Assembly: GCF_030680395.1 (NCBI RefSeq)
Contig: NZ_JAUXVR010000029.1
Span: forward strand, 62,001 to 126,000
From: Methylobacter sp.
GTDB lineage: Bacteria; Pseudomonadota; Gammaproteobacteria; Methylococcales; Methylomonadaceae
Length of the DNA stretch: 64,000 bases
Direction of reading: 5' to 3'
The translations under genes were made by a program, and so were the position numbers. Numbering within the stretch: the first letter of the stretch is position 1; every line of letters begins with the position of its first letter. The notes below the pieces were generated by a model. It worked only from the letters and a program-made list of their open reading frames with translations, had not been told where the DNA came from and ran no database searches. Shown here one piece after another: positions 24,821 to 62,044 of the stretch.

Positions 24821-26632
24821 TTACTTAACGGCATGCAATTTGGTTGTTGAGCTATGTGTAAGGGATTGAAAGTTTTCTGAATTCTTTACGGTCATTCGTT
24901 TGTTAATAAATAAACTATTGCCTGCGATTTTTTTGGCCATTTTTTTTGCCTCGGACGCTAAATCGGCTATATCGACATGGGACTGACACTGACCGGTTGC
25001 TACAGGGTCTACCAGTCCGATGGACAGACTGATCAGGGGGAAAAAGCATTTTTCTCCCGCCCTGTTTTCAGTATGAATGCCGCCGGATTTTATATCGCTG
25101 TTACGGTAATAGGATGGGACAGTATTTTTAAAGGCTTCCAGTATGTTTTCGCAGCGGATTAACCAGTCATCGCAGGTAAAAATCACAATAAAATCATCAC
25201 CGCCTATATGTCCGACCCGACCGCTCTCCGCCGGAATGTAGTTAATTAGCACATTGGCAACGGCTTTGATGATGTCATCGCCCGCATCGTAGCTGTAAAT
25301 ATCATTAAAGGGTTTGAAGTTATCAAGATCAAAATAGCCGAAACCGAAAGGTATTTTGTTGGCCAGTAATTGATTGATCTGAATATTGATGGGAACGCTA
25401 CCCGGCAATAAGGTAAGGGGATTGGCGTGCCTGGCATTATCAATTTGCTGGCGGGTAAATTCGGCGAGTAAATCCAGCAGCGTGCCTATGCCCATATAGG
25501 CCCCGTTATCGGTAATGATAAAGGCCGAGTCGTTAGTCATTAATGATGTCAGTTGTTTACTGACTAAATCGATGGGCATGTTTTTATCAATACATAACGG
25601 TGTATTTTCAATAAACATTTTTATGGGATTCTTTCCATGTAAGTCAATACCATATCGATTGGAGAACAGTTTGGTGAGGAATTTGTCACGAAAAATAATG
25701 CCCGAAGCCGTATTGTCATCGACCAATGGCAGTATGGTTAGTTCACTGTTGTGATGAAACAGATTCATCACGTCACTGATAGTGGTTTTTGATGAAATAG
25801 GCGTGATGTCTCTGATGATATGAACTGCCGTTACGGCGTTATTAAATGGAACCGTTTTGTAATCCTTGGTCTGGACGGTAGCAAACAGTAAAGTGTCTAT
25901 TTTCTCTGCGGGAATAGCCGTTGGCTTGGCAAAATAATAGCCTTGGGCATGGGTTATGCCAAGTTTTTCTATGGCCTTAAATTCTTCTTCTGATTCGATA
26001 CCTTCGGCAATGACGTTGCAATTGAGAGAGACCGCCATGCTTTGAATTGAACGAACAAAATTAAGTTTGATCTGATCGTCATCAAGGCCGTGGATAAAGT
26101 GTTTATCTATTTTGACATATTCAGGCAGTAATTCAGCCCAGAGTCTTAGCCCTGAATAACCGGCGCCCAAGTCGTCCAAGGCAATCTCAAAACCCATGCC
26201 CCGGTAGTGTTTGGCCGAGGCGCGCATGATTTCGTAGTTATCGGACGGCTTGTGTTCGGTTAATTCAATAATGACAGAATGCGGATTGACGCCGTAGTGG
26301 TCGAGTAACCTGAGTGTTTCGCCTTTTTTAAATTCCGGTTGCAGTAGCACCAAAGGACTGGCGTTAATAAACAGTTTTTCTTTAATGCCCAGGTCGGCGT
26401 AGCGCTGTATGGTTATTTCCCGGCAGAGGAACTCCAGTCTTGTGCTTAAATTAAAGCGTTCGGCAGTGGTGAATAAGTTAAACGGGCTGTGTAGCGGGCT
26501 ATCGGATGGGCCGCGAATTAGTGCTTCGTAACCCATGATTCTCTTTTGAGTCAAGGAAACAATAGGTTGGAAATACGGGGTTAATAGTTTGCCGTCAAGG
26601 ATACTGATTATTTCTTTGCGTAGATCCGGCAT
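24821..26632 (-). CDS. EAL-CBS-GGDEF signalling protein
   Basis: This 603-residue cytoplasmic protein combines an N-terminal EAL domain (about 1-250), a CBS-pair region (about 270-400) and a C-terminal GGDEF domain (about 410-580). The EAL domain keeps all the usual residues: YEALIRG, FINASP, ELTEH, LDDLGAGYS, VKIDK, AEGIE and QGYYF. The GGDEF motif reads GGDDF (HIGGDDFIVI), a common active variant. No RxxD inhibitory site precedes it. The protein could both make and degrade c-di-GMP, with the CBS pair sensing an adenine nucleotide. It has no membrane segment. Confidence 0.93.
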   Translation of the reverse strand: MPDLRKEIISILDGKLLTPYFQPIVSLTQKRIMGYEALIRGPSDSPLHSPFNLFTTAERFNLSTRLEFLCREITIQRYADLGIKEKLFINASPLVLLQPEFKKGETLRLLDHYGVNPHSVIIELTEHKPSDNYEIMRASAKHYRGMGFEIALDDLGAGYSGLRLWAELLPEYVKIDKHFIHGLDDDQIKLNFVRSIQSMAVSLNCNVIAEGIESEEEFKAIEKLGITHAQGYYFAKPTAIPAEKIDTLLFATVQTKDYKTVPFNNAVTAVHIIRDITPISSKTTISDVMNLFHHNSELTILPLVDDNTASGIIFRDKFLTKLFSNRYGIDLHGKNPIKMFIENTPLCIDKNMPIDLVSKQLTSLMTNDSAFIITDNGAYMGIGTLLDLLAEFTRQQIDNARHANPLTLLPGSVPINIQINQLLANKIPFGFGYFDLDNFKPFNDIYSYDAGDDIIKAVANVLINYIPAESGRVGHIGGDDFIVIFTCDDWLIRCENILEAFKNTVPSYYRNSDIKSGGIHTENRAGEKCFFPLISLSIGLVDPVATGQCQSHVDIADLASEAKKMAKKIAGNSLFINKRMTVKNSENFQSLTHSSTTKLHAVK

Positions 26633-27026
26633 CTGATAGAGCCCCTATGCAAGTTGAGGTTAGCAGCAGGATAGAGGGCTTTTATGACGGGGATATTTCT
26701 TCATGATGACATGAATATTTCAGTACATGATTCGAGACAGAGAAGTGTTGTGTATTTTATTGATAAGTATATAAAAAATATACTTTAGTCGGTGGCTTGG
26801 GATTAATAATACACCCCGGCTGAACCTACCGCAGGAGTCAGTCGGCTTGGTGTTTTTAAACGATATTTAGCAGTATGCCGGACACGGTAAAGTCGCCGAG
26901 CAGCGGATAATGGGTGCCTTTAAAAATCGATCATCGGATCTCTCAATTCTTAGAAGCACCAGGTTATCATCTGGTTTGACCGATTTTGCGCCGGAGACAA
27001 TTCGATAAGCGGTCTTATGTCTCAGA
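26633..27026. other. Non-coding gap before the chemoreceptor
   Basis: This is an AT-rich gap of 394 bases between two minus-strand genes, the upstream region of the EAL-CBS-GGDEF gene and the downstream region of the chemoreceptor. No ORF, repeat or clear terminator was recognised. Confidence 0.45.
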
Positions 27027-40989: not shown

Positions 40990-42030
40990 TCATTGCTTAA
41001 TCTGCAAAACCTCCACAGTACTCCAGACAGCTTCAATAAAATCCGTATCCATTTCAGGCATACCGTTCTGTATCCATTGCACCAGCACTTTGGCAATATT
41101 GGGATAGGTAATATGGACGGCGCGGTTGTCATGCAGCCAGTGTTCAATAACTGAGCTGTCCATATCATGCATGATGTGCCCGTAACCTAACTGCTGTAAG
41201 GCGGCGGCATTGGAGATTTGTTCCATTTGCGCATGCAGCGGTTTAGCCAGGATTCTTTTGCCCAGTTGCAGCGATTCACTGGCCAGCTCAAATCCGGCAT
41301 TGCTGATAATACCGGCGCAATCGTATAAATCTTTCTGGAAACCGTTGCGCGACAGCGAATTGCAGGTGATGTGGGCGAATTTGGATGGAACCGGTTCCGG
41401 CGAATAAATATGAAAGTCAAAATTTTTAAAGGGCGACAAAAGCCGGATGACTTCATTCTGGTCTTCGAAAGGAAGGTACACAATGATCTTGTTTTTGATA
41501 ATGCTTTTTGGCGTTTCGGGCGTGTCGATAATGGGCGGTAAAATGGGCTGGCCAAAATGATGCCAGTGTAAACCGACACCCACATCAGCCGGGGCAAAAT
41601 ACTTTATAACTTGATTGGCGATAGGATCCGATCCCTCTCTGGGGATTTTATGGTTAAACGCATATTGATGTCCGATGCCCAAAACAGGCTTTTTCTGGTT
41701 TTTTGCCGCCCAGGCGGTAACCGGTTCAAAATCGCTGATGACCAGATTATAGCTGCTTAAATCCAGTGATTTTATATCTTTTATAAAAGTAATGGGTTTG
41801 GCATCGCATGCGGTTTTCAAATAGCTGACTTGGCCTTTCTCGGTATGAAAGGTCAGGCCGGTGCGTGATTGATAGCCGTTAAAGACTTCCATATCGAAAT
41901 ACTTATCCGCAGGGCGGCCGGTAAATTGAAAGGTAACGTCAATTCCGGCGGCATAAAGTTCTTTCGCCATCACCCGCGCGCGAGTGATGTGGCCGTTACC
42001 GGTGCCCTGTACGCCATAAAAAATATTCAT
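40990..42030 (-). CDS. MJ1255/VC2487-family glycosyltransferase
   Basis: This 346-residue protein matches the MJ1255/VC2487 family (TIGR00661-like, MurG-like GT-B fold). It opens with NIFYGVQGTGNGHITRARVM (nucleotide-sugar transferases of this kind begin with a Gly-rich GxGHxxRA motif), has LVISDFEPVTAWAAK in the middle and the C-terminal ISNAGFELASESLQLGKRIL acceptor-binding stretch. Its start overlaps the PAP2 phosphatase stop by ATGA. In this lipid cluster, glycosylation of a diacylglycerol acceptor is a reasonable guess, but the substrate is unknown. Confidence 0.85.
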   Translation of the reverse strand: MNIFYGVQGTGNGHITRARVMAKELYAAGIDVTFQFTGRPADKYFDMEVFNGYQSRTGLTFHTEKGQVSYLKTACDAKPITFIKDIKSLDLSSYNLVISDFEPVTAWAAKNQKKPVLGIGHQYAFNHKIPREGSDPIANQVIKYFAPADVGVGLHWHHFGQPILPPIIDTPETPKSIIKNKIIVYLPFEDQNEVIRLLSPFKNFDFHIYSPEPVPSKFAHITCNSLSRNGFQKDLYDCAGIISNAGFELASESLQLGKRILAKPLHAQMEQISNAAALQQLGYGHIMHDMDSSVIEHWLHDNRAVHITYPNIAKVLVQWIQNGMPEMDTDFIEAVWSTVEVLQIKQ

Positions 42031-42551
42031 ATTACGATTTGTCCCAAACTAAAGAGCGCTGTACCGATGCCCAAGATGACGCCTACCAACGTATCGGTCG
42101 GGAAATGCACGCCCAGCACCACGCGGGAGAAACCGACCAATGCCGCCCAACAATAAAGAAGGATCATTAAGGGGGGTAAGTAATAACCGAGCAAAGTCGC
42201 CATCATGAAAGCGGCGGACGTATGGCCGGATGGAAAACTGAATTGATCCGAGGGCGTAATAATGCTGCGAAAGTTTTGTAAAGCAGCTTGCGGCCGATTG
42301 CGTTTCAGGCTGTTTTTTAATACAAAATAGATGGGTCTTTCGATTAAAAAAGCCAACAGAACAGCATGCAAAAAGGGGCTTTCAAAACCCTCACTCCAAT
42401 ATAGCAAGCCTATGATGACCAGATACAGCGGGCCGTCGCCGGTTTTCGATATATAGCGGCTGGCCTTGGTCAAGGTGCCGTGTATTCTGGCATTGATCAG
42501 CCAGGTGAACATGAAAACGTCGTATTTATGGATGGAATAGAGCAGTTTCAT
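42027..42551 (-). CDS. PAP2-type membrane phosphatase
   Basis: This 174-residue membrane protein carries the three PAP2 motifs: KNSLKRNRP (KxxxxxxRP), FSFPSGHT (PSGH) and SRVVLGVHFPTD (SRxxxxxHxxxD). Several membrane helices surround them. It would dephosphorylate a lipid phosphate such as phosphatidate or undecaprenyl diphosphate. It is translationally coupled to the glycosyltransferase and has 11-bp-phased Pho-like half-sites upstream, so generation of diacylglycerol for glycolipid synthesis is plausible. Confidence 0.92.
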   Translation of the reverse strand: MKLLYSIHKYDVFMFTWLINARIHGTLTKASRYISKTGDGPLYLVIIGLLYWSEGFESPFLHAVLLAFLIERPIYFVLKNSLKRNRPQAALQNFRSIITPSDQFSFPSGHTSAAFMMATLLGYYLPPLMILLYCWAALVGFSRVVLGVHFPTDTLVGVILGIGTALFSLGQIVI

Positions 42552-42648
42552 ATCTTTATCCTCTTGAGAGAAACTCTACAAAAGCCGGTTGCGATCTTTT
42601 GCGGGGACGAAAGGCGTTAACCTTCAAGGCAAAGCATAAAACTCTTCT

Positions 42649-42688
42649 GTGACAAAGATATGAACGTTTGTTTAAGTTTTTGTGACAA
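42649..42688 (-). promoter_or_regulatory. Pho-box-like array upstream of PAP2-GT operon
   Basis: Read on the minus strand from 42688: TTGTCAC-AAAA-ACTTAAA-CAAA, then CGTTCAT-ATCT-TTGTCAC. These are four 7-base half-sites exactly 11 bases apart. TTGTCAC matches the PhoB half-site CTGTCA(C/T) at 6 of 7 positions twice, and CGTTCAT at 5 of 7. It lies just after the plcP-like stop (42693) and about 100 bases before the PAP2 start. Confidence 0.6.
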
Positions 42689-42692
42689 AGAC

Positions 42693-43490
42693 TTACGCTA
42701 CTTGTGCATATTCGGGTTGCGGCTCAAGCTGCTGATCCAGCAGTTGCTGACTTTCTTCCAGCCAGTGGACAATGGACAGCTGTCCGGCTTCATCTTCGAT
42801 CAATGCGGTGCAACTTTCCACCCAGTCGCCGCAATTGCAGTAGGTTTTACCGAATTCCATTTCAGTTATGTCGGCGTGATGGATGTGTCCGCAAATAATC
42901 CCGTCCACATGCCTTTTTTGCGCTTCCAGGCTTAGGATATGCTGATAGTTATCCATGAAACTGATGATGTTTTTGACCTTGTGCTTTAAAAATGCGGAGA
43001 TGGACCAGTATTTGAAGCCCATTTTTGAGCGCAACACATTCAGCCAGCGGTTGATGACCAACAATACCTCATAAGCCTCGCCGCCGATGTAAGCCAGATT
43101 TTTATTGTGACAGACGATGCTGTCGAATTCATCGCCGTGCAGAACCAGGAACTTGCGGCCGTCCCGGGTGGTATGAATGGCATTGAGCTGTATATCAACA
43201 CCGTTAAAATGCATCCCGGCATGTTTGCGGAACGGCTCGTCGTGATTGCCGGGTATATAAATGACCCGTGTGCCTTTTTTGGCCTTGTCGATCACCCGTT
43301 GCACAATGTCGCCGTGCAGGGCAGGCCAATAAAAGCCGGATTTGAATTTCCACAAATCGATAATGTCACCGACCAGATAGAGATAGTCGCATTCGACATT
43401 ATCGAGAAAATCCCTCAGCTGTTCAGCCTTGCAGCCTTTAGTGCCCAGATGGGTGTCTGAGATCCAAATTGAACGATACTTTAATGTCAT
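42693..43490 (-). CDS. PlcP/LpxH-like metallophosphoesterase
   Basis: This protein of about 265 residues has the full calcineurin-like metal-binding set: SIWISDTHLG, LVGDIIDLW, IPGNHDE, HGDEFD and CGHIHHADI. The stretches HLGTKGCKAEQLRDFL and KAKKGTRVIYIPGNHDEPFR resemble the branch often annotated UDP-2,3-diacylglucosamine diphosphatase, which includes the phospholipase C PlcP (SMc00171) of Sinorhizobium. PlcP removes phospholipid head groups under phosphate starvation. AGGTGG lies 5 bases before ATG 43490. The Pho-like box upstream and the ornithine-lipid genes nearby favour the PlcP reading; LpxH-like activity remains the alternative. Confidence 0.8.
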   Translation of the reverse strand: MTLKYRSIWISDTHLGTKGCKAEQLRDFLDNVECDYLYLVGDIIDLWKFKSGFYWPALHGDIVQRVIDKAKKGTRVIYIPGNHDEPFRKHAGMHFNGVDIQLNAIHTTRDGRKFLVLHGDEFDSIVCHNKNLAYIGGEAYEVLLVINRWLNVLRSKMGFKYWSISAFLKHKVKNIISFMDNYQHILSLEAQKRHVDGIICGHIHHADITEMEFGKTYCNCGDWVESCTALIEDEAGQLSIVHWLEESQQLLDQQLEPQPEYAQVA

Positions 43491-43539
43491 GCTATCCACC
43501 TTTAACAAGTTTCGATGGTAGCTAAAATACCCTTGAATT

Positions 43540-43568
43540 ATTACAGGAAGTTAACTGTTTGATGACGT
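43540..43568 (-). promoter_or_regulatory. Pho-box-like site upstream of plcP-like gene
   Basis: On the minus strand, ACGTCAT-CAAA-CAGTTAA-CTTC-CTGTAAT has half-sites at 0, 11 and 22 bases. Ten bases downstream of the last half-site is TATTTT, a possible -10, which is the spacing expected at PhoB-activated promoters. The gene starts 50 bases downstream at 43490. Confidence 0.55.
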
Positions 43569-43580
43569 TTCCATTAAGTT

Positions 43581-44357
43581 TCAGCGGCCTGCTTCAATGT
43601 CTACCCACTCTTTCAGTTGCAGCACCACCCACGCGCCGTCATCCAACGTCAGGTCGTGGCCTGCCCAAAGATGTCTGCGAAGTTCCAGATTCCACTTTTT
43701 GTGTATCGCCTCTGAGCAGGCCGGCGCAACCAGTCGATCGCCTAGTCCGTTTAATAATAAAACCGGTTGCTTCGGTTTTATCTTGCCGGGCCGATAAGTT
43801 GCAGCCGCTATAATCTGGCGGACGCTGTTTTTAAGGCTTATGGGGCGTTCATTTTGTATCTTTTCCCAGACGCGAATGGTTTGTTTCCGCTGATTTCGGC
43901 GGTTGCTTGTCAACCGCAAGATTCCCGATTCCCGGTTATGCAAGTCGCGCATCATCGCCAATGCGACAAAGTCTCGGTAACTTTGCCAGCGTAGCCGGTG
44001 ATAAAAGGGACTCACATCGGCAAAACTGGTGTTCATCAGGGTTGCGCCGCAAATATCCTCGGGATAGCGGCGCATCCACTCCCAGGCCACCATCGCTCCC
44101 AGCGAAAGCGCAAGAATCGTTGCCGGTTGTTGTATGGCACCCCTATCCAGCGCATCGTGGCGTACGCTGTCGGTTATCGCCTTGATCGTGTTCGGACTGG
44201 TTTCCCGATGAAAGCAACCGGTGCCGGGCAAATCCAGCAGCGTTATTTGAGCCTCCGGAAATGCCGATTTTAAAAGAGGAACAAAATCGCCCCAATGTCC
44301 CGACTCACGCGCCAAGCCTCTCAGCAGTATCCAGTTTTTTCCTGGCGCTTTATTCAT
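43581..44357 (-). CDS. Alpha/beta-hydrolase
   Basis: This protein of about 258 residues has an alpha/beta-hydrolase layout: WILLRGLARESGHWGDFVPL, LLDLPGTGCFHRE, the nucleophile elbow LALSLGAMVAW (Ser in xLSLG, with Ala in place of the first Gly), NGLGDRLV for the acid and WAGHDLTLDD for the histidine. The start ATG 44357 overlaps the M14-like gene by 8 bases. It could be a lipase or esterase; no specific substrate can be assigned. Confidence 0.8.
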   Translation of the reverse strand: MNKAPGKNWILLRGLARESGHWGDFVPLLKSAFPEAQITLLDLPGTGCFHRETSPNTIKAITDSVRHDALDRGAIQQPATILALSLGAMVAWEWMRRYPEDICGATLMNTSFADVSPFYHRLRWQSYRDFVALAMMRDLHNRESGILRLTSNRRNQRKQTIRVWEKIQNERPISLKNSVRQIIAAATYRPGKIKPKQPVLLLNGLGDRLVAPACSEAIHKKWNLELRRHLWAGHDLTLDDGAWVVLQLKEWVDIEAGR

Positions 44358-45366
44358 ACCAAAGACCTGAGGCCTTTTTTTCATAGGCTGCCTTTTGTCG
44401 CGGCTTCAGCTGTGTCCATTGTTCCGGATACAAAAGGCTGCGGTATAAAAAGTCAAACAGCATGAAATGCCGCCGAAAAATCCGTTGCTGACGGTGCGGC
44501 AGCAGCGGATGGAACAAGCCGTGCCGCGAGAATAGATGCATCGGACTTTTGCGCAGCCAAAGCCATGAGCCCATTTCCAGTGTCAACGGCAGGAATAAGC
44601 GTTCGGCCTCAAAGCGTTGCACAAAATCATCGAACAGGTAATCCCACAGGTCGCCGTTAATCATATATTCCTGACAGGTCGGTTCAATCCTGTAGATATG
44701 GTGTTGATAGCAACGATCAAACAGTTCTTTTAAGGCCAAGGTTTCGGCAATAAAGGCAAACGGGGTCTTGCGCGAGGCGTAGGGAAACCATAGTCGATCC
44801 TGAATGCCGAATCCCGAGTGCAAATCCAGGGCGATCGACAACGGAGAATTGAACATGTGTTGTTGTACAACGCGGCATAAAGCTTGAGCTTCCTTTTCCA
44901 TTTTGGATTCATCGCCGCGATACCAGGGCAGGCGGGGAGTGAGGCGGTGGCCGCTGAAAATACGGGTTGCGCCTATGCCTTCCACAGGCGAGTTGCGCAT
45001 CAGGTCGACGCCGTTGCCATTGCAACGCGTGCCCAGATAAACGCCGACCGGATTGACGAGGGGGACAAAAACCAGTCGGGATTTTTCCAGCCGGGCCAGA
45101 AATTCCTGATCCCAGTCCAATAGCTGACTGATGGTTTCCATATAGGACAGGATCACTTCGGAACCGATTTTCTCCAGTCCATGTACGCCGCCGAAAAAGG
45201 CCAATACAGGCACATCGGGCTGAGTCGATCCCAGGGTAATGCAATGAATGGGGAATTCATGATCCTGGTATTGGATCTTTTCTATGACCTCGGTTTGGGC
45301 TCGGTCTCCTAATTGCTCAATAATGCGTTCAAGTTGTTCGAGTTCAGGGAATTTAATGGCAGTCAT
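44350..45366 (-). CDS. M14-family metallocarboxypeptidase-like protein
   Basis: This 338-residue protein has zinc-site motifs of the M14/AstE-like superfamily: FFGGVHGLEKIGSEVILSYM (HxxE), VPLVNPVGVYLGTRCNGNGV, VDLMRNSPVEG and LDLHSGFG (third ligand His). The LEMGSWLWLRKSP stretch may hold the catalytic Glu. It may cleave a terminal amide or peptide bond. It belongs to the DUF2817-like group by appearance. Its stop overlaps the hydrolase start, so the two are co-expressed. Confidence 0.75.
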   Translation of the reverse strand: MTAIKFPELEQLERIIEQLGDRAQTEVIEKIQYQDHEFPIHCITLGSTQPDVPVLAFFGGVHGLEKIGSEVILSYMETISQLLDWDQEFLARLEKSRLVFVPLVNPVGVYLGTRCNGNGVDLMRNSPVEGIGATRIFSGHRLTPRLPWYRGDESKMEKEAQALCRVVQQHMFNSPLSIALDLHSGFGIQDRLWFPYASRKTPFAFIAETLALKELFDRCYQHHIYRIEPTCQEYMINGDLWDYLFDDFVQRFEAERLFLPLTLEMGSWLWLRKSPMHLFSRHGLFHPLLPHRQQRIFRRHFMLFDFLYRSLLYPEQWTQLKPRQKAAYEKKASGLWYE

Positions 45367-45467
45367 AAAACCGAATCAGTATTTATAGTCAAATACAGCA
45401 CTATTTCCCAAAAAACCGGTTGCGACAATAATTCTTTTTTCATACTGGATTCATGCAAGGGAGGTGA

Positions 45468-45980
45468 TCAGAATATCCGCGCTATTTTAAAAGTAGAAAT
45501 CATCAGGAAACCCTGAATTAAAAAGACTATCGGCCAATAATTCAGGCTTTGAGGGAAGCTGCCAAAAAGCAGGAAAAGGACCGGAAACAGGACACCGTTC
45601 ACGGTAATAGGCACGCCCTCGAAGCCCGTTCCGTCTGAAATATTATAGCGAGCGAGCCGAAGCATGCCGCAGGCGATAAAGAACAAGGCCACTGCGATGC
45701 CTAACATACCGGGAGAGCTCAGTGAGTAAAATAACAAGGCGGGAGCAACGCCAAAGGATACCAGATCGGACATGGAATCGATTTGTTTGCCGAAAAGATT
45801 CTTTTGATGCAGTAGACCGGCTATTTTTCCATCAAGCACATCAAACACCACCGCCAAAAACAGCAGCAATGCGCTTAAGTAAAAAGAACCGTCAATGGCG
45901 AACAAAATCGAAAGGACGCCGCAGCACAGATTTCCAACGGTAAAAATATCAGCAATTTTCATTAAACTTAAAATTTTCAT
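45468..45980 (-). CDS. CDP-alcohol phosphatidyltransferase (PssA-like)
   Basis: This 170-residue membrane enzyme has the family signature with correct spacing (VLDGKIAG, eight residues, then GKQIDSMSD), but the Arg after DGxxA is replaced by Gly. It has several helices and the SDLVSFGVAPALLFYSLSSP stretch typical of phosphatidylserine synthase type II. Family members swap the CMP of CDP-diacylglycerol for an alcohol such as serine or inositol. The Arg-to-Gly change is unusual and might alter substrate binding. A Pho-like box (46020-46037 and upstream) precedes it. ATG 45980 has AGGA upstream. Confidence 0.8.
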   Translation of the reverse strand: MKILSLMKIADIFTVGNLCCGVLSILFAIDGSFYLSALLLFLAVVFDVLDGKIAGLLHQKNLFGKQIDSMSDLVSFGVAPALLFYSLSSPGMLGIAVALFFIACGMLRLARYNISDGTGFEGVPITVNGVLFPVLFLLFGSFPQSLNYWPIVFLIQGFLMISTFKIARIF

Positions 45981-46019
45981 AGCGTATCCTGTGGTTAACG
46001 TTATAACTGTTGCAAGCTT

Positions 46020-46048
46020 ATAGCAGGCTCATGACAGGGTGATGAATT
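46020..46048 (-). promoter_or_regulatory. Pho-box-like site upstream of PssA-like gene
   Basis: Read on the minus strand: AATTCAT-CACC-CTGTCAT-GAGC-CTGCTAT, half-sites 11 bases apart. CTGTCAT is a perfect PhoB half-site and CTGCTAT matches 5 of 7. A TATAAC box lies about 15 bases further downstream, and the gene starts at 45980. Confidence 0.6.
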
Positions 46049-46053
46049 GAACC

Positions 46054-46848
46054 TTAAGATGATTTTAAACGCTGTTGATCCGAATTACCCGCCGGTACAC
46101 CTTCTGAAATTTTTTCCCATATCCTGTCTCGTGCTTCAAGGCTGACGGTATGACGGTCTTTTCCCGAGCTGTTAATAACAGGGAGAAAACTAAGCCGCAC
46201 CTCGATTTTATCCAAAGCCAGCATCCTGATTAAATGCGGCACAAAGGCATCGTCACCGACAAAAGGCGCATGTTCTTTGGCTGTGCCTTGGTATTGAAGG
46301 ACTACGGGTTGAACAGTTGACTTGGTTAGTAAGGCAGGTTGAAATAAAGAGGAATGAAAGTGCAAAACCTCGTCGCCTTTAGTCGTCGTCCCTTCAGGAA
46401 AAGCAATAATGTTGCTGTTTTGTTTTAACAACCAGACCATTTTTTCGGCGGTAGTCCGGATATGCTGTTTATCGCCGCGACGGATAAAAATAGTGCCTGC
46501 TTGTCGGGCCAGATAACCGATGACCGGCCAGTTTGAAATGTCGCTCTTGGCAATAAAACAGGCCGGTAAATATTGGCCGATCACGATGATGTCCAACCAG
46601 GAGATGTGATTGCTAATTAGGATGGCGCGTCGTTCCGGCAACTCGCCATCTTTGATTATATGCAGGTTAACAATCGAGCTGAACTTTCGTAGCCAGCGGG
46701 TTTTGATTGCATCCTTTTTGACTTTGGCGTCGCGCGTTGAATATAAAAAACTCAGTGCCGGGAAAACACCCGTAGCTATGATGAGTCCATTGGTAAACAG
46801 GACGACAACCAGGAACAGTTTATAGTACAGCCGTATTTTCGATTTCAT
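46054..46848 (-). CDS. OlsA-like 1-acylglycerol-phosphate acyltransferase
   Basis: This protein of about 264 residues has an N-terminal membrane segment (LFLVVVLFTNGLIIATGVF) and PlsC motifs: ISNHISWLDIIVIGQYLP (NHxxxxD), GTIFIRRGDK and IIAFPEGTTTKGDEVLHFHS. Downstream of OlsB such enzymes usually act as OlsA, which adds the second acyl chain to lyso-ornithine lipid. ATG 46848 starts 7 bases after the OlsB stop. It could instead be a general PlsC, but the pairing with OlsB favours OlsA. Confidence 0.85.
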   Translation of the reverse strand: MKSKIRLYYKLFLVVVLFTNGLIIATGVFPALSFLYSTRDAKVKKDAIKTRWLRKFSSIVNLHIIKDGELPERRAILISNHISWLDIIVIGQYLPACFIAKSDISNWPVIGYLARQAGTIFIRRGDKQHIRTTAEKMVWLLKQNSNIIAFPEGTTTKGDEVLHFHSSLFQPALLTKSTVQPVVLQYQGTAKEHAPFVGDDAFVPHLIRMLALDKIEVRLSFLPVINSSGKDRHTVSLEARDRIWEKISEGVPAGNSDQQRLKSS

Positions 46849-46855
46849 TGCCGGC

Positions 46856-47716
46856 CTACTGCGCCACGCCAGTTCCCGATTGGCTTGCGGTATACACTCC
46901 ATCCCTGGAGATATAGCCGCGCATGTAGTGTTTGCTGTAACGCTCTTGCAATTGGTCGAGCGGTAATAACATAAATAAATCCATGCAGTTAAAATCTTTA
47001 TCCCAGCAAGGTTCGCCGCAGACCATAGCGCCGAAACGAAAATAAGCCTTTAATAAAGGAGGAATACCCGACTCGTCCCGAGCGCATCTTAATTCGCTGG
47101 GTACCGGGATGCTGGGATTGACTTGAATAGAGGAGGGCGCAATATTTTTGGCATCGATATTCCGGTAAACCGCATCGACGGCAAAACCGCTGGGCCCCGG
47201 AGTAATGCTGGCACAACCGAGCAAATAATTAAACTGTCCTTCAAGCGCGTATTGAACCAGTGCCGACCAAAGCGTAGTTAGCACCGCGCTGCCGCGATAA
47301 TCAGGGTCAACGCAAGTTCGGCCTATTTCCAAAAAACGGCCGGGTAACGTTAATACCTGATCCAGATTGAATTCGCTTTGAGAATAAAAACGGCCAAGGC
47401 GTTCCGCCTGATCTTGATTAAGCAATCGCGTGTAACCGACTATTTTTTTATTGACGTTGTCATACACAATCAAATGATCGCAATAATTATCCACCTCATC
47501 ATAATCCAGTCCTTCCGATTCGGTCTTGAGCTTGGCGCCCATTTCTTTGGCGAACACACGGAAACGCAACGCCTGGGCTTCTTTTATTAACGTTTCTGAG
47601 TCTGCCTCCGCGCCAGCTCCCGGCAGGTTTCCGGCATACACACCATCCCTGGCGATAACAAAAGATTCCAATCGCTTGGAAGACTTGAACTGTATTGCTG
47701 CGTCTGTTTTTTTCAT
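46856..47716 (-). CDS. olsB: OlsB-like ornithine N-acyltransferase
   Basis: This protein of about 286 residues matches OlsB (acyl-ACP:ornithine N-acyltransferase, which makes lyso-ornithine lipid). Conserved segments are IKEAQALRFRVFAKEMGAKL, YCDHLIVYD, IVGYTRLL, GRFLEIGRTCVDPDYRG, LLGCASITPGPSG and CMDLFMLLP. The gene is paired with an acyltransferase of OlsA type. ATG 47716 is chosen although no clear Shine-Dalgarno is present; a hairpin (47718-47751) covers the region just upstream. The promoter carries phased CTGTCAT half-sites. Confidence 0.85.
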   Translation of the reverse strand: MKKTDAAIQFKSSKRLESFVIARDGVYAGNLPGAGAEADSETLIKEAQALRFRVFAKEMGAKLKTESEGLDYDEVDNYCDHLIVYDNVNKKIVGYTRLLNQDQAERLGRFYSQSEFNLDQVLTLPGRFLEIGRTCVDPDYRGSAVLTTLWSALVQYALEGQFNYLLGCASITPGPSGFAVDAVYRNIDAKNIAPSSIQVNPSIPVPSELRCARDESGIPPLLKAYFRFGAMVCGEPCWDKDFNCMDLFMLLPLDQLQERYSKHYMRGYISRDGVYTASQSGTGVAQ

Positions 47717-47717
47717 G

Positions 47718-47751
47718 GGTATCCACATGGCTAAATAAAGATGTGGATACC
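47718..47751 (-). promoter_or_regulatory. Hairpin covering the olsB translation start region
   Basis: ATGTGGATACC (47741-47751, plus strand) and GGTATCCACAT (47718-47728) form an 11-bp stem with a 12-base loop, ending 2 bases before the olsB ATG. It would occupy the usual ribosome-binding region of the mRNA. This could be an RNA thermometer, a protein-bound translational operator or simply a REP-like hairpin. Confidence 0.5.
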
Positions 47752-47786
47752 TTAATGAATAAAGGTGTCAGTTTTGTGTCGAACTC

Positions 47787-47826
47787 ATGAACATCAAATG
47801 ACAGAATAGTTAAGTTTTGATGACAG
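47787..47826 (-). promoter_or_regulatory. Pho-box-like array upstream of olsB
   Basis: On the minus strand from 47826: CTGTCAT-CAAA-ACTTAAC, then TATT-CTGTCAT-TTGA, then TGTTCAT. There are four half-sites spaced 11 bases apart, two of them perfect CTGTCAT. The array lies 70 bases upstream of the olsB start. The shared ACTTAA second half-site recurs at the PAP2 array (42649-42688). olsB is known to be PhoB-controlled in Sinorhizobium. Confidence 0.7.
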
Positions 47827-48012: not shown

Positions 48013-49542
48013 TCAAAACCACTCTAAACGATATAAATCCGGGCGCCGATTCGCAAGATTACGTGCAGCGCCGCGAGTACGGACTTGTTTTAATAAATCC
48101 AGGTTAACATCGGCAATCAAAGTCATTTCGGTGTTTGGCGTCGCTTCCGCTAATATCGCATCATGCGGAAATGAAAAGTCGCTGGGACTGAAAATGGCCG
48201 CTTGCGCGTATTGGATATCCATGTTTTCAGCGTACGGCAAATTGCCGACACTGCCGGTAATCGCCACAAAACATTCATTTTCAATGGCGCGGGCGTGAGA
48301 GCAATAGCGTACCCGTTGATAGGCATTCTTGGTGTCGGTCCAGAAGGGGACAAAAATAATTTGCGCGCCCTGGATAGTCGCCAAGCGGGCAAGTTCGGGG
48401 AATTCGGAATCGTAACAGATTAATACCGCGATTTTTCCGCAATCGGTATCGAACACTTTTAACGCATCGCCGCCTTTAACGCCCCAACAACTGACCTCGT
48501 CAATGGTGACATGGATTTTGTATTGGGCTTCAAAGGTGCCGTCGCGCCTGAGCAGCCACGACACGTTATAGAGTTCATGGGCGCTATACTCGGGCATGGA
48601 ACCGGCAATAATATTGATATTGTAAGACATGGCCATTTCCAGTAAGCCATTCCTGATTTCACTGGTAAAACCCGCCAAGGCGCGAATGGCATCGGGAGGG
48701 CTTTTATCATTAAACAAGCCCATCAGCGGCGCGCTCATGTATTCGGGGAAGAGCACAAAATCGGCATGGTAACCGGCTACCGCATCAATGAAAAATTCGG
48801 CATGCTTGAGCAATTCTTCGACGCTGGTCAAGGTTCGCATCTGCCATTGTACAACGCCTAAACGGATGACATTTTTGGAGCTGCCTAGCGATGGCGTTTT
48901 ATCGACATAATCAAGATTGACCCATTCAAGCAGGGTAGCAAACCCCTTCGAATCGACATCGACAGGCAGATAGCCGGTTAACAGCTTACGTACATGGAAA
49001 CCGTTAAACAGCTGAAATGAAAGCACCGGATCATAAATTTCCCGATTTTTGACCTCTTCGATATAACGCACCGGCGTTAAGGTATCGGCGTATTTGGCAT
49101 AGCCGGGAATCCGTCCACCGGCAATAAATCGACGCAGGTTCAGGTTGCGGCATAACTCTTTGCGCGCATCGTACAATCTTCGGCCCAAGCGCAAGCCTCG
49201 ATACTTTGGGTGGACAAAAATATCGACGCCATACAAGGTGTCGCCGAGTGGGTCATGATGAGTCAGATAACCATTACTGGTAATTTGAGCATAGGTGTGG
49301 ACATCGCCAAAGCGGGCATAATCAACGACCATGCTTAATGCAGCGGCCACTAACTGGCCATTATCTTCAATGACAATCTGCCCTTGAGGAAAACGGGTGA
49401 TTTGGGACGTATACTGGTCTTTCTTCCAGGCCCCACCCAAATTACCGTAGACATGCTCCATTAAAACCGCAATATTAGCGTAATCGTCAAGGGTCAGATG
49501 CCGAAGTAAAAGCTTATGTTTTTTGATCTTGTCTTTTTTCAT
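48013..49542 (-). CDS. GNAT acetyltransferase fused to carbon-nitrogen hydrolase
   Basis: This protein of about 509 residues has an N-terminal GNAT domain (residues 1-160, YGVDIFVHPKYRGLRLGRRL acetyl-CoA motif) and a C-terminal nitrilase-like domain (from about 220) with Glu in LFPEYMSAP, Lys in YKIHVTIDE and Cys in AVLICYDSEFPELARLA. Such fusions are common in gammaproteobacteria and may acetylate and then hydrolyse amides. ATG 49542 (MKKDKIKK) is preferred to the TTG at 49548. Confidence 0.9.
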   Translation of the reverse strand: MKKDKIKKHKLLLRHLTLDDYANIAVLMEHVYGNLGGAWKKDQYTSQITRFPQGQIVIEDNGQLVAAALSMVVDYARFGDVHTYAQITSNGYLTHHDPLGDTLYGVDIFVHPKYRGLRLGRRLYDARKELCRNLNLRRFIAGGRIPGYAKYADTLTPVRYIEEVKNREIYDPVLSFQLFNGFHVRKLLTGYLPVDVDSKGFATLLEWVNLDYVDKTPSLGSSKNVIRLGVVQWQMRTLTSVEELLKHAEFFIDAVAGYHADFVLFPEYMSAPLMGLFNDKSPPDAIRALAGFTSEIRNGLLEMAMSYNINIIAGSMPEYSAHELYNVSWLLRRDGTFEAQYKIHVTIDEVSCWGVKGGDALKVFDTDCGKIAVLICYDSEFPELARLATIQGAQIIFVPFWTDTKNAYQRVRYCSHARAIENECFVAITGSVGNLPYAENMDIQYAQAAIFSPSDFSFPHDAILAEATPNTEMTLIADVNLDLLKQVRTRGAARNLANRRPDLYRLEWF

Positions 49543-49597
49543 AGCCAAAAAGTATAACTTTGCTTTTTGACGGCTTTATTACAATGTAATTAATCCA

Positions 49598-61816: not shown

Positions 61817-62044
61817 CTAATGGGGTTGTTTGTTCACGATTCTCTGGTAGACATCATCCCACGGAGAGCCTGATTCAGGGCTTTGGTGATACTTTTCCAG
61901 CCGCTCATCAATTATGCTTTTCTCCTCGTCGGTCAGTTCAATAGAAGATGCTTTTGCAGTTATCGTATCCCAGATGTCTTCTATCAATTGAATCCTTTCA
62001 TGTATTGATAATTCAAGAGTATCTGCTGCGGTTATTTTGCTCAT
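61817..62044 (-). CDS. Addiction-module antitoxin (CHP02574 type), possibly orphan
   Basis: This protein of about 75 residues is like the antitoxins at 22502 and 22947: LSIHERIQLIEDIWDTITAK, ELTDEEKSIIDERLEKYHQS, SPWDDVYQRIV. The ATG at 62044 is preferred. The gene directly after it on the minus strand is the Phd antitoxin, so its own toxin may be missing. Confidence 0.8.
   Translation of the reverse strand: MSKITAADTLELSIHERIQLIEDIWDTITAKASSIELTDEEKSIIDERLEKYHQSPESGSPWDDVYQRIVNKQPH

Follow-up and report, generated by a model that had tools for sequence, protein, structure and literature searches.

The 64-kb window analysed here (the whole stretch, positions 62,001 to 126,000 of contig NZ_JAUXVR010000029.1) is part of a 4.36-Mb genome assembled in 49 contigs and carries a cluster of lipid genes preceded by arrays of 11-bp repeats, which we interpret as predicted Pho boxes, the binding sites of PhoB. 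Judging from 86-99% protein identity to the cluster of Methylobacter tundripaludum SV96 (OlsA 86, hydrolase 89, glycosyltransferase 92, OlsB 93, PAP2 97, PssA-like 98 and M14 99%), the genome is probably that of a Methylobacter. The cluster lies on the minus strand. In the order of that strand it comprises genes for an OlsB-like ornithine N-acyltransferase (290 amino acids (aa), 46856..47728; top NCBIfam model OlsB, Pfam Acetyltransf_5), an OlsA-like O-acyltransferase whose gene overlaps the end of olsB (282 aa, 46054..46902), a PssA-like CDP-alcohol phosphatidyltransferase (170 aa, 45468..45980), an M14-family zinc carboxypeptidase-like protein (44350..45366), an alpha/beta hydrolase (43581..44384), a PlcP-like metallophosphoesterase (271 aa, 42693..43508), a PAP2-family phosphatase (174 aa, 42027..42551) and an MJ1255/VC2487-family glycosyltransferase (40990..42030), the last two genes overlapping by 4 bp. 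Arrays are found upstream of olsB, pssA, plcP and PAP2. The olsA, M14, hydrolase and glycosyltransferase genes have no array of their own.

The original prediction listed 14 minus-strand half-sites at 11-bp steps, spanning 47787-47826 (olsB), 46020-46048 (pssA), 43540-43568 (plcP) and 42649-42688 (PAP2). All 14 are present and the register is exact. The olsB array turned out to be longer than first noted. The predicted olsBA promoter (47749..47826, minus strand, as are all promoters below) contains six half-sites, CTGTCAT (47820-47826), ACTTAAC (47809-47815), CTGTCAT (47798-47804), TGTTCAT (47787-47793), TCGACAC (47776-47782) and CTGACAC (47765-47771), of which the extra pair TCGACAC and CTGACAC (47765-47782) adjoins the core, a 10-bp spacer (N10) and a −10 hexamer TAAGGT (47749-47754). 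The predicted plcP promoter (43524..43579) is made up of ACTTAAT (43573-43579), ACGTCAT (43562-43568), CAGTTAA (43551-43557), CTGTAAT (43540-43546), N10 and TATTTT (43524-43529). That of the PAP2-glycosyltransferase pair (42633..42688) consists of TTGTCAC (42682-42688), ACTTAAA (42671-42677), CGTTCAT (42660-42666), TTGTCAC (42649-42655), N10 and TATGCT (42633-42638). The predicted pssA promoter (45993..46059) begins with TCTTAAG (46053-46059), AATTCAT (46042-46048) and CTGTCAT (46031-46037) and can be read in two ways: with a −10 element TAAGCT (46015-46020) at N10 from CTGTCAT 46031-46037, or with further units CTGCTAT (46020-46026) and TTGCAAC (46009-46015). The two readings score nearly equally (13.9 vs 14.6), so CTGCTAT may be either spacer or a unit of the array.

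Conservation of the arrays was assessed in OlsB loci from the best 80 of 227 relatives, named as Methylobacter, other Methylococcales and, in a few cases, only 'Gammaproteobacteria'. With the window included, 79 upstream regions were available for olsB (two loci were dropped as too short), 13 for plcP (one dropped), seven for PAP2 and eight for pssA. The mean four-unit score at a spacing of 11 bp, compared with the highest value among spacings 7-10 and 12-16, was 22.0 vs 5.5 for olsB, 12.5 vs 4.6 for plcP, 16.1 vs 6.1 for PAP2 and 12.7 vs 7.1 for pssA. No 11-bp peak was found in upstream regions of the glycosyltransferase, OlsA, M14 and hydrolase genes. The opposite strand scored low at olsB, PAP2 and pssA. 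The ACTTAA half-site, noted before as common to the olsB and PAP2 arrays, is not special to them: plcP (ACTTAAT) and pssA (TCTTAAG) each carry one upstream, and with 58 of the 79 olsB arrays containing an in-register nnTTAAn it is a common degenerate unit.

A second test required a TAnnnT hexamer exactly 10 bp downstream of the half-sites, with a threshold score of at least 12. For this test sets of 30 loci each, closest first and with the genome's own gene in each set, were collected for plcP, PAP2, pstS and two further window genes, which code for an EAL-domain protein and a GNAT-nitrilase fusion (the EAL set has 32 rows, one paralogue being present twice). The threshold was reached at N10 by 63/79 olsB regions (22 at the next best gap, none in shuffles, one per region), 30/30 plcP loci (8 at the next best gap; 11/13 in the smaller set), 25/30 PAP2 loci (3 at the next best gap; 6/7 in the smaller set), 28/32 EAL rows, two of which are one gene (4 at the next best gap), 26/30 nitrilase loci (11 at the next best gap) and 22/30 pstS promoters of Methylococcales (13 at the next best gap, which is 7 bp). 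Three of the remaining PAP2 loci have the same layout just below 12 and two are without it. Controls reached the threshold in 1/8 (glycosyltransferase), 0/77 (OlsA), 0/34 (M14) and 0/33 (hydrolase) regions; the OlsA and hydrolase regions are mostly coding and so are weaker negative controls than intergenic DNA. In the window itself pssA scored 13.9, plcP 18.5, PAP2 15.4, EAL 17.5 and nitrilase 16.5. The comparison with relatives proposed in the original prediction shows an 11-bp peak and N10-TAnnnT conserved at olsB, plcP and PAP2, and a pssA array in five of eight copies. Anchoring succeeded for 75 of the 79 olsB regions, which reduce to 32 non-redundant promoters; in these the half-sites hold 0.96 bits, the spacers 0.37 and the flanks 0.35. 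Three of the five units are favoured by the anchor score itself; of those outside it, the nearer is equally strong and the most distal weak (~0.3), and conservation of the −10 element is partly by construction, with TA and the last T demanded.

Chance expectation was estimated at several scales. In 2000 dinucleotide shuffles of each region (the short pssA and plcP regions were extended by 30 bp into the neighbouring gene) the four-unit score gave p = 0.0005, the floor, at olsB, pssA, plcP and PAP2. With three units p was 0.0005, 0.0005, 0.0020 and 0.0105, respectively, and with the full score (array plus N10 plus −10) it was 0.0005, 0.0015, 0.0005 and 0.0010. Over the whole window, on consensus alone and with four units, olsB (19.7) and pssA (16.9) were above the maxima of 20/20 shuffles. 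A sequence-only model was trained on 31 promoters from other genomes, with olsB rows dominating. Of 43 promoters extracted, nine (those of close relatives and of locus L155) were removed and 34 aligned, and one plcP row, 11 bp out of register, and the olsB rows of L157 and L170 were then left out. In a whole-genome scan with this model olsB ranked first (E = 8.4e-7; seven matches at E <= 10, 150 of 1165 candidates scored), and the strong arrays were recovered as well. A plain whole-genome consensus search was rejected as a definition of the regulon, being too noisy.

The full score was also ranked over 350 upstream regions from 433 kb of the genome, of which 116.9 kb (L073-L079) had been chosen for arrays or Pho genes. 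The olsB region came 3rd, EAL 4th, pstS 5th, plcP 6th, nitrilase 8th, PAP2 9th and pssA 10th. A score of at least 14 was reached by 6/53 window regions, 4/89 regions in the stretches chosen for arrays or Pho genes and 0/208 in unchosen stretches, which form the better control, one of them containing a two-mismatch box. Wrong unit spacings of 9, 10, 12 and 13 bp reached 14 in 0/53 window regions and in 2, 1, 0 and 0 of the 208; wrong gaps of 7, 8, 12 and 13 bp did so in 3, 3, 1 and 2 of 53 and in 1, 1, 1 and 0 of 208, the window regions scoring at wrong gaps because the arrays themselves score. These counts put chance at score 14 at or below about one in 100 regions, compared with 6/53 in the window. 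In the scan against background that had been suggested, all four arrays stood out from per-region shuffles; window- and genome-wide the result was positive for olsB (and, within the window on four units, for pssA) and weak for plcP and PAP2. On consensus in this genome alone the latter two are weak, and it is conservation across Methylococcales that settles them.

One PhoB of the genome is above the curated cut-off (TIGR02154, 336 bits vs 296; one of 69 matches). Over 222 aa it shares 59% identity with Escherichia coli PhoB. The kinase gene next to it bears the PhoR domain PF11808, and a pstSCAB-phoU gene run is present. The distance from box to core promoter is described as strictly spaced in PhoB-activated promoters (PMC10294691). 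With the same matrices E. coli phoA, phoB, pstS and phoE all peaked at gap 10 among gaps 5-15, the peak being narrow for phoB (20.5 vs 19.8) and phoE (13.6 vs 12.5). The fixed N10 is found at olsB, plcP, PAP2, EAL and nitrilase and is ambiguous at pssA. The strongest array in the fetched stretches lies upstream of a gene for a phosphate-selective porin (Porin_O_P) and has four near-perfect units, N10 and TATTCT.

We conclude that the arrays are very probably tandem Pho boxes of predicted PhoB-activated σ70 promoters. The identification as PhoB boxes made in the original prediction is supported, at the level of sequence, by the 11-bp period, the N10 to the −10 element as in E. coli, the same layout before relatives' pstS and the genome's own phosphate-selective porin gene, the PhoB and PhoR genes, and conservation. 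By analogy with E. coli, PhoR would phosphorylate PhoB when phosphate is scarce, PhoB, bound head-to-tail on the 11-bp units, would substitute for a −35 element, and transcription by RNA polymerase would start from the −10 hexamer 10 bp past the last unit. The induced genes would lower the phosphorus need of the cell. As protein families and neighbours suggest, the PlcP-like enzyme, and perhaps PAP2, would release diacylglycerol from phospholipid by stripping head groups or phosphate, the PAP2-coupled glycosyltransferase would convert this product to glycolipid, and OlsB/OlsA would make phosphate-free ornithine lipid. The same switch would stand before the EAL phosphodiesterase gene and the GNAT-nitrilase gene.

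The pssA promoter is the weakest of the four. An alternative that is unlikely but has to be taken seriously is that olsB, plcP and PAP2 are PhoB-controlled, and that the pssA array is vestigial or weak and does not work, transcripts of pssA coming by read-through of olsBA or from a −10 element before pssA itself. The array is missing in three of the eight copies compared, and there is no unique −10 gap, gaps of 5, 10 and 16 bp each being found in 5/8 with gap 10 having the lowest mean of the three; both observations also count against the assignment of pssA to PhoB. In addition, in locus L099 pssA starts ~40 bp past the aligned olsA end. Against this alternative, the array has p = 0.0005 on shuffles, it is retained in five of eight copies, window included, and the genome's other PssA gene is without an array (best three-unit score 7.2). 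Both gene products are above the TIGR00473 cut-off, the cluster copy with 121.8 bits vs 107. The signature of CDP-alcohol phosphotransferases includes an arginine in an AR pair. This arginine is absent from the cluster protein, where DGKIAG or DGKIAS (glycine or serine instead) is found in 8/8 cluster copies, window included, and it is kept in the second copy of the genome (DGRVAR). Because of the missing arginine the protein is named PssA-like only.

It is much less probable that the arrays are sites of another OmpR-family regulator, or plain σ70 promoters with TTGTCA words as −35 elements. PhoB relatives can read similar direct repeats, and several more regulators of the genome give full-length matches to the PhoB model; these are below the cut-off that a single match exceeds. 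The same layout before relatives' pstS, before the phosphate-selective porin gene and in E. coli Pho promoters argues for PhoB. A −35 element needs ~17 bp to the −10 element; for the half-sites this distance is 10 and 21 bp.

A number of observations weigh against PhoB boxes. On three units 2/20 window shuffles reach olsB, and likewise pssA. The PAP2 four-unit score of 14.0 is reached by 7/20 window shuffles, and plcP (12.0 on four units, 13.2 on three) is within the shuffle range. The plcP, PAP2 and pssA promoters are absent among the seven whole-genome model matches at E <= 10 in the 150 candidates scored. Since wrong geometries reach 14 in 0-2 of the 208 unchosen regions, the score line is not free of chance hits. 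In the TAnnnT test the window olsB scores 11.9, just below the threshold (21.8 with a fourth unit). Without the TAnnnT demand the preference of olsB for N10 is modest (mean 14.8 at 10 bp vs 13.9 at 11 bp), and no more than 42/79 olsB regions have TAnnnT at N10 from their top-scoring triple; the many units of dense arrays blur the signal, since distal ones can outscore those near the core. For plcP the opposite strand scores as well in the 13-region set (9.8 vs 12.5), in keeping with the divergent plcP genes found close to olsB in loci such as L129 and L135, and is low in the 30-locus set (5.0 vs 17.6). The phoB gene itself is without a clear box (9.1), and some top arrays, on contigs C45 and C2 and before the genome's own pstS (CATAAT at N10), lack the N10-TAnnnT end. 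Still, it is extremely improbable that the arrays are chance repeats picked by eye among the TGTCA-like words that AT-rich intergenic DNA yields, since the barely raised relaxed count (91 genome-wide with three units and at most three mismatches vs 74 in the control) and the position of plcP and PAP2 within or near the shuffle range are outweighed by 11-bp peaks with N10-TAnnnT in many genomes, which speak for olsB, plcP and PAP2, and by the 0/208 unchosen regions that reach the score.

As to the extent of the predicted regulon, the idea of a local Pho regulon is supported, with the count of four promoters being too low: two more, neither of them in the original list, are predicted in the window, which probably contains six Pho promoters by their sequence. 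One (26668..26723), outside the region described originally, has CTGAAAT, ATGTCAT, AAGAAAT, CCGTCAT, N10 and TATCCT and precedes the gene for a 603-aa EAL-CBS-GGDEF protein (24821..26632, minus strand), probably a phosphodiesterase of cyclic diguanylate (c-di-GMP) in which the EAL motif is present and the remaining active site was judged by eye. Its paralogue on contig C33 (99765-101546) is 73% identical and has a stronger array than the window gene. The other promoter (49551..49584) has two units, TTGTAAT (49578-49584) and CCGTCAA (49567-49573), followed by N10 and TATACT (49551-49556), and precedes the gene for a 511-aa fusion of GNAT and carbon-nitrogen hydrolase domains (48013..49548, minus strand), whose true start is probably downstream of the called TTG. 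A narrow literature search for this fusion gene returned no matching paper.

The lipid functions are suggested by similarity of differing strength. For the OlsB-like protein the best model is OlsB (159 bits, that model's cut-off being 320), and for the OlsA-like protein it is OlsA (123.5 bits, equivalog cut-off 300); an OlsA match is found in 76 of the 80 OlsB loci. In the PlcP-like protein the metallophosphoesterase motifs DTH, GDIID, GNHD, HGD and GHIH, which form its metal site, are intact. Its identification as LpxH was rejected (35 bits with the LpxH model vs a cut-off of 190). PlcP-like matches occur in 114 of 151 Methylococcales genomes and form two main groups, ~72-92% and 40-48% identical to the window protein, a further protein being at 55%. 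The two groups occur together in some genomes, and the window's genome has the first only; boxes are found upstream of members of both. All 30 PAP2 loci, window included, have a glycosyltransferase match no more than 1.5 kb away from PAP2, and 8 of them have a PlcP-like match with a query of either group. In PDB sequence searches the PlcP-like protein had no relative at E <= 0.01, and the glycosyltransferase had a single chance-level match. A structural model of the latter (mean predicted local distance difference test score 67.9, seven sequences) had GT-B-type glycosyltransferases, with low template-modelling score, among the 50 matches listed. In the 20.8-kb SV96 locus there is no plcP-like match. 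Between the hydrolase and PAP2 genes of that locus, in the place of plcP (L163:14342-16477), the reading frames look transposase-like by eye.

Lipid remodelling linked to PhoB is already known elsewhere, and the window cluster adds a new case. In the Pseudomonas aeruginosa PlcP-Agt system, as described in PMC8528852, plcP and lipid glycosyltransferases lie behind predicted Pho boxes and phospholipid is replaced by glycolipid at low phosphate. The window resembles it in having plcP and a glycosyltransferase behind predicted Pho boxes. It differs in that plcP, PAP2-glycosyltransferase and olsBA have separate predicted Pho promoters in one cluster, and in the assignment of its glycosyltransferase to the MJ1255/VC2487 family; the lipid exchange is measured in neither gene nor product here but predicted from the genes. 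A study of lipid remodelling in Methylosinus trichosporium OB3b (PMC9239053) reports PlcP as ubiquitous in proteobacterial methanotrophs, OlsBA in some of them, and a putative diacylglycerol glycosyltransferase near plcP in M. tundripaludum. The term 'Pho box' is absent from its main text, and what it tells of methanotroph lipid remodelling does not extend to the window's promoters, its pairing of PAP2 with the glycosyltransferase or its remaining Pho genes. In Acinetobacter baumannii a predicted Pho box precedes olsB and aminolipid formation is regulated through PhoR (PMC11828411); olsA of that species lacks a box and shows no response, whereas olsB and olsA of the window overlap behind one six-unit array. 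The EAL gene recalls RapA of Pseudomonas fluorescens, a c-di-GMP phosphodiesterase whose gene has a Pho box and is expressed at low phosphate (PMC3032545). The window's genome differs in having EAL-GGDEF proteins, with two paralogues that both have arrays. No account of Methylococcales Pho boxes was found in the titles and abstract openings of the open-access papers listed by the literature searches.

In lakes and wetlands, gammaproteobacterial methanotrophs are among the chief consumers of methane. The effect of phosphorus on methane oxidation is a matter on which reports conflict, as PMC9239053 notes. The predicted promoters name a compact gene set and exact sites for a possible low-phosphate change of membranes and of the c-di-GMP level, and they make the low-phosphate question testable in a cultured strain. 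Phosphate may control c-di-GMP in Methylococcales through the EAL genes. A wider proposal, which we regard as speculative and improbable in full, is that of a Methylococcales Pho regulon in which one neighbourhood joins lipid exchange, lowering of c-di-GMP by EAL proteins under Pho control and the GNAT-nitrilase as a new enzyme of the Pho response, with the arginine-less PssA-like protein recruited for a non-serine head group.

Two further arrays were observed on other contigs of the genome. The one at C45:16091-16152, among the strongest of the fetched stretches, is located 3' of urease-cluster genes and 5' of a 103-aa frame without a Pfam match. The other, at C2:30898-30926, is located upstream of a gene whose product has cyclic-nucleotide-binding and rhodanese domains.

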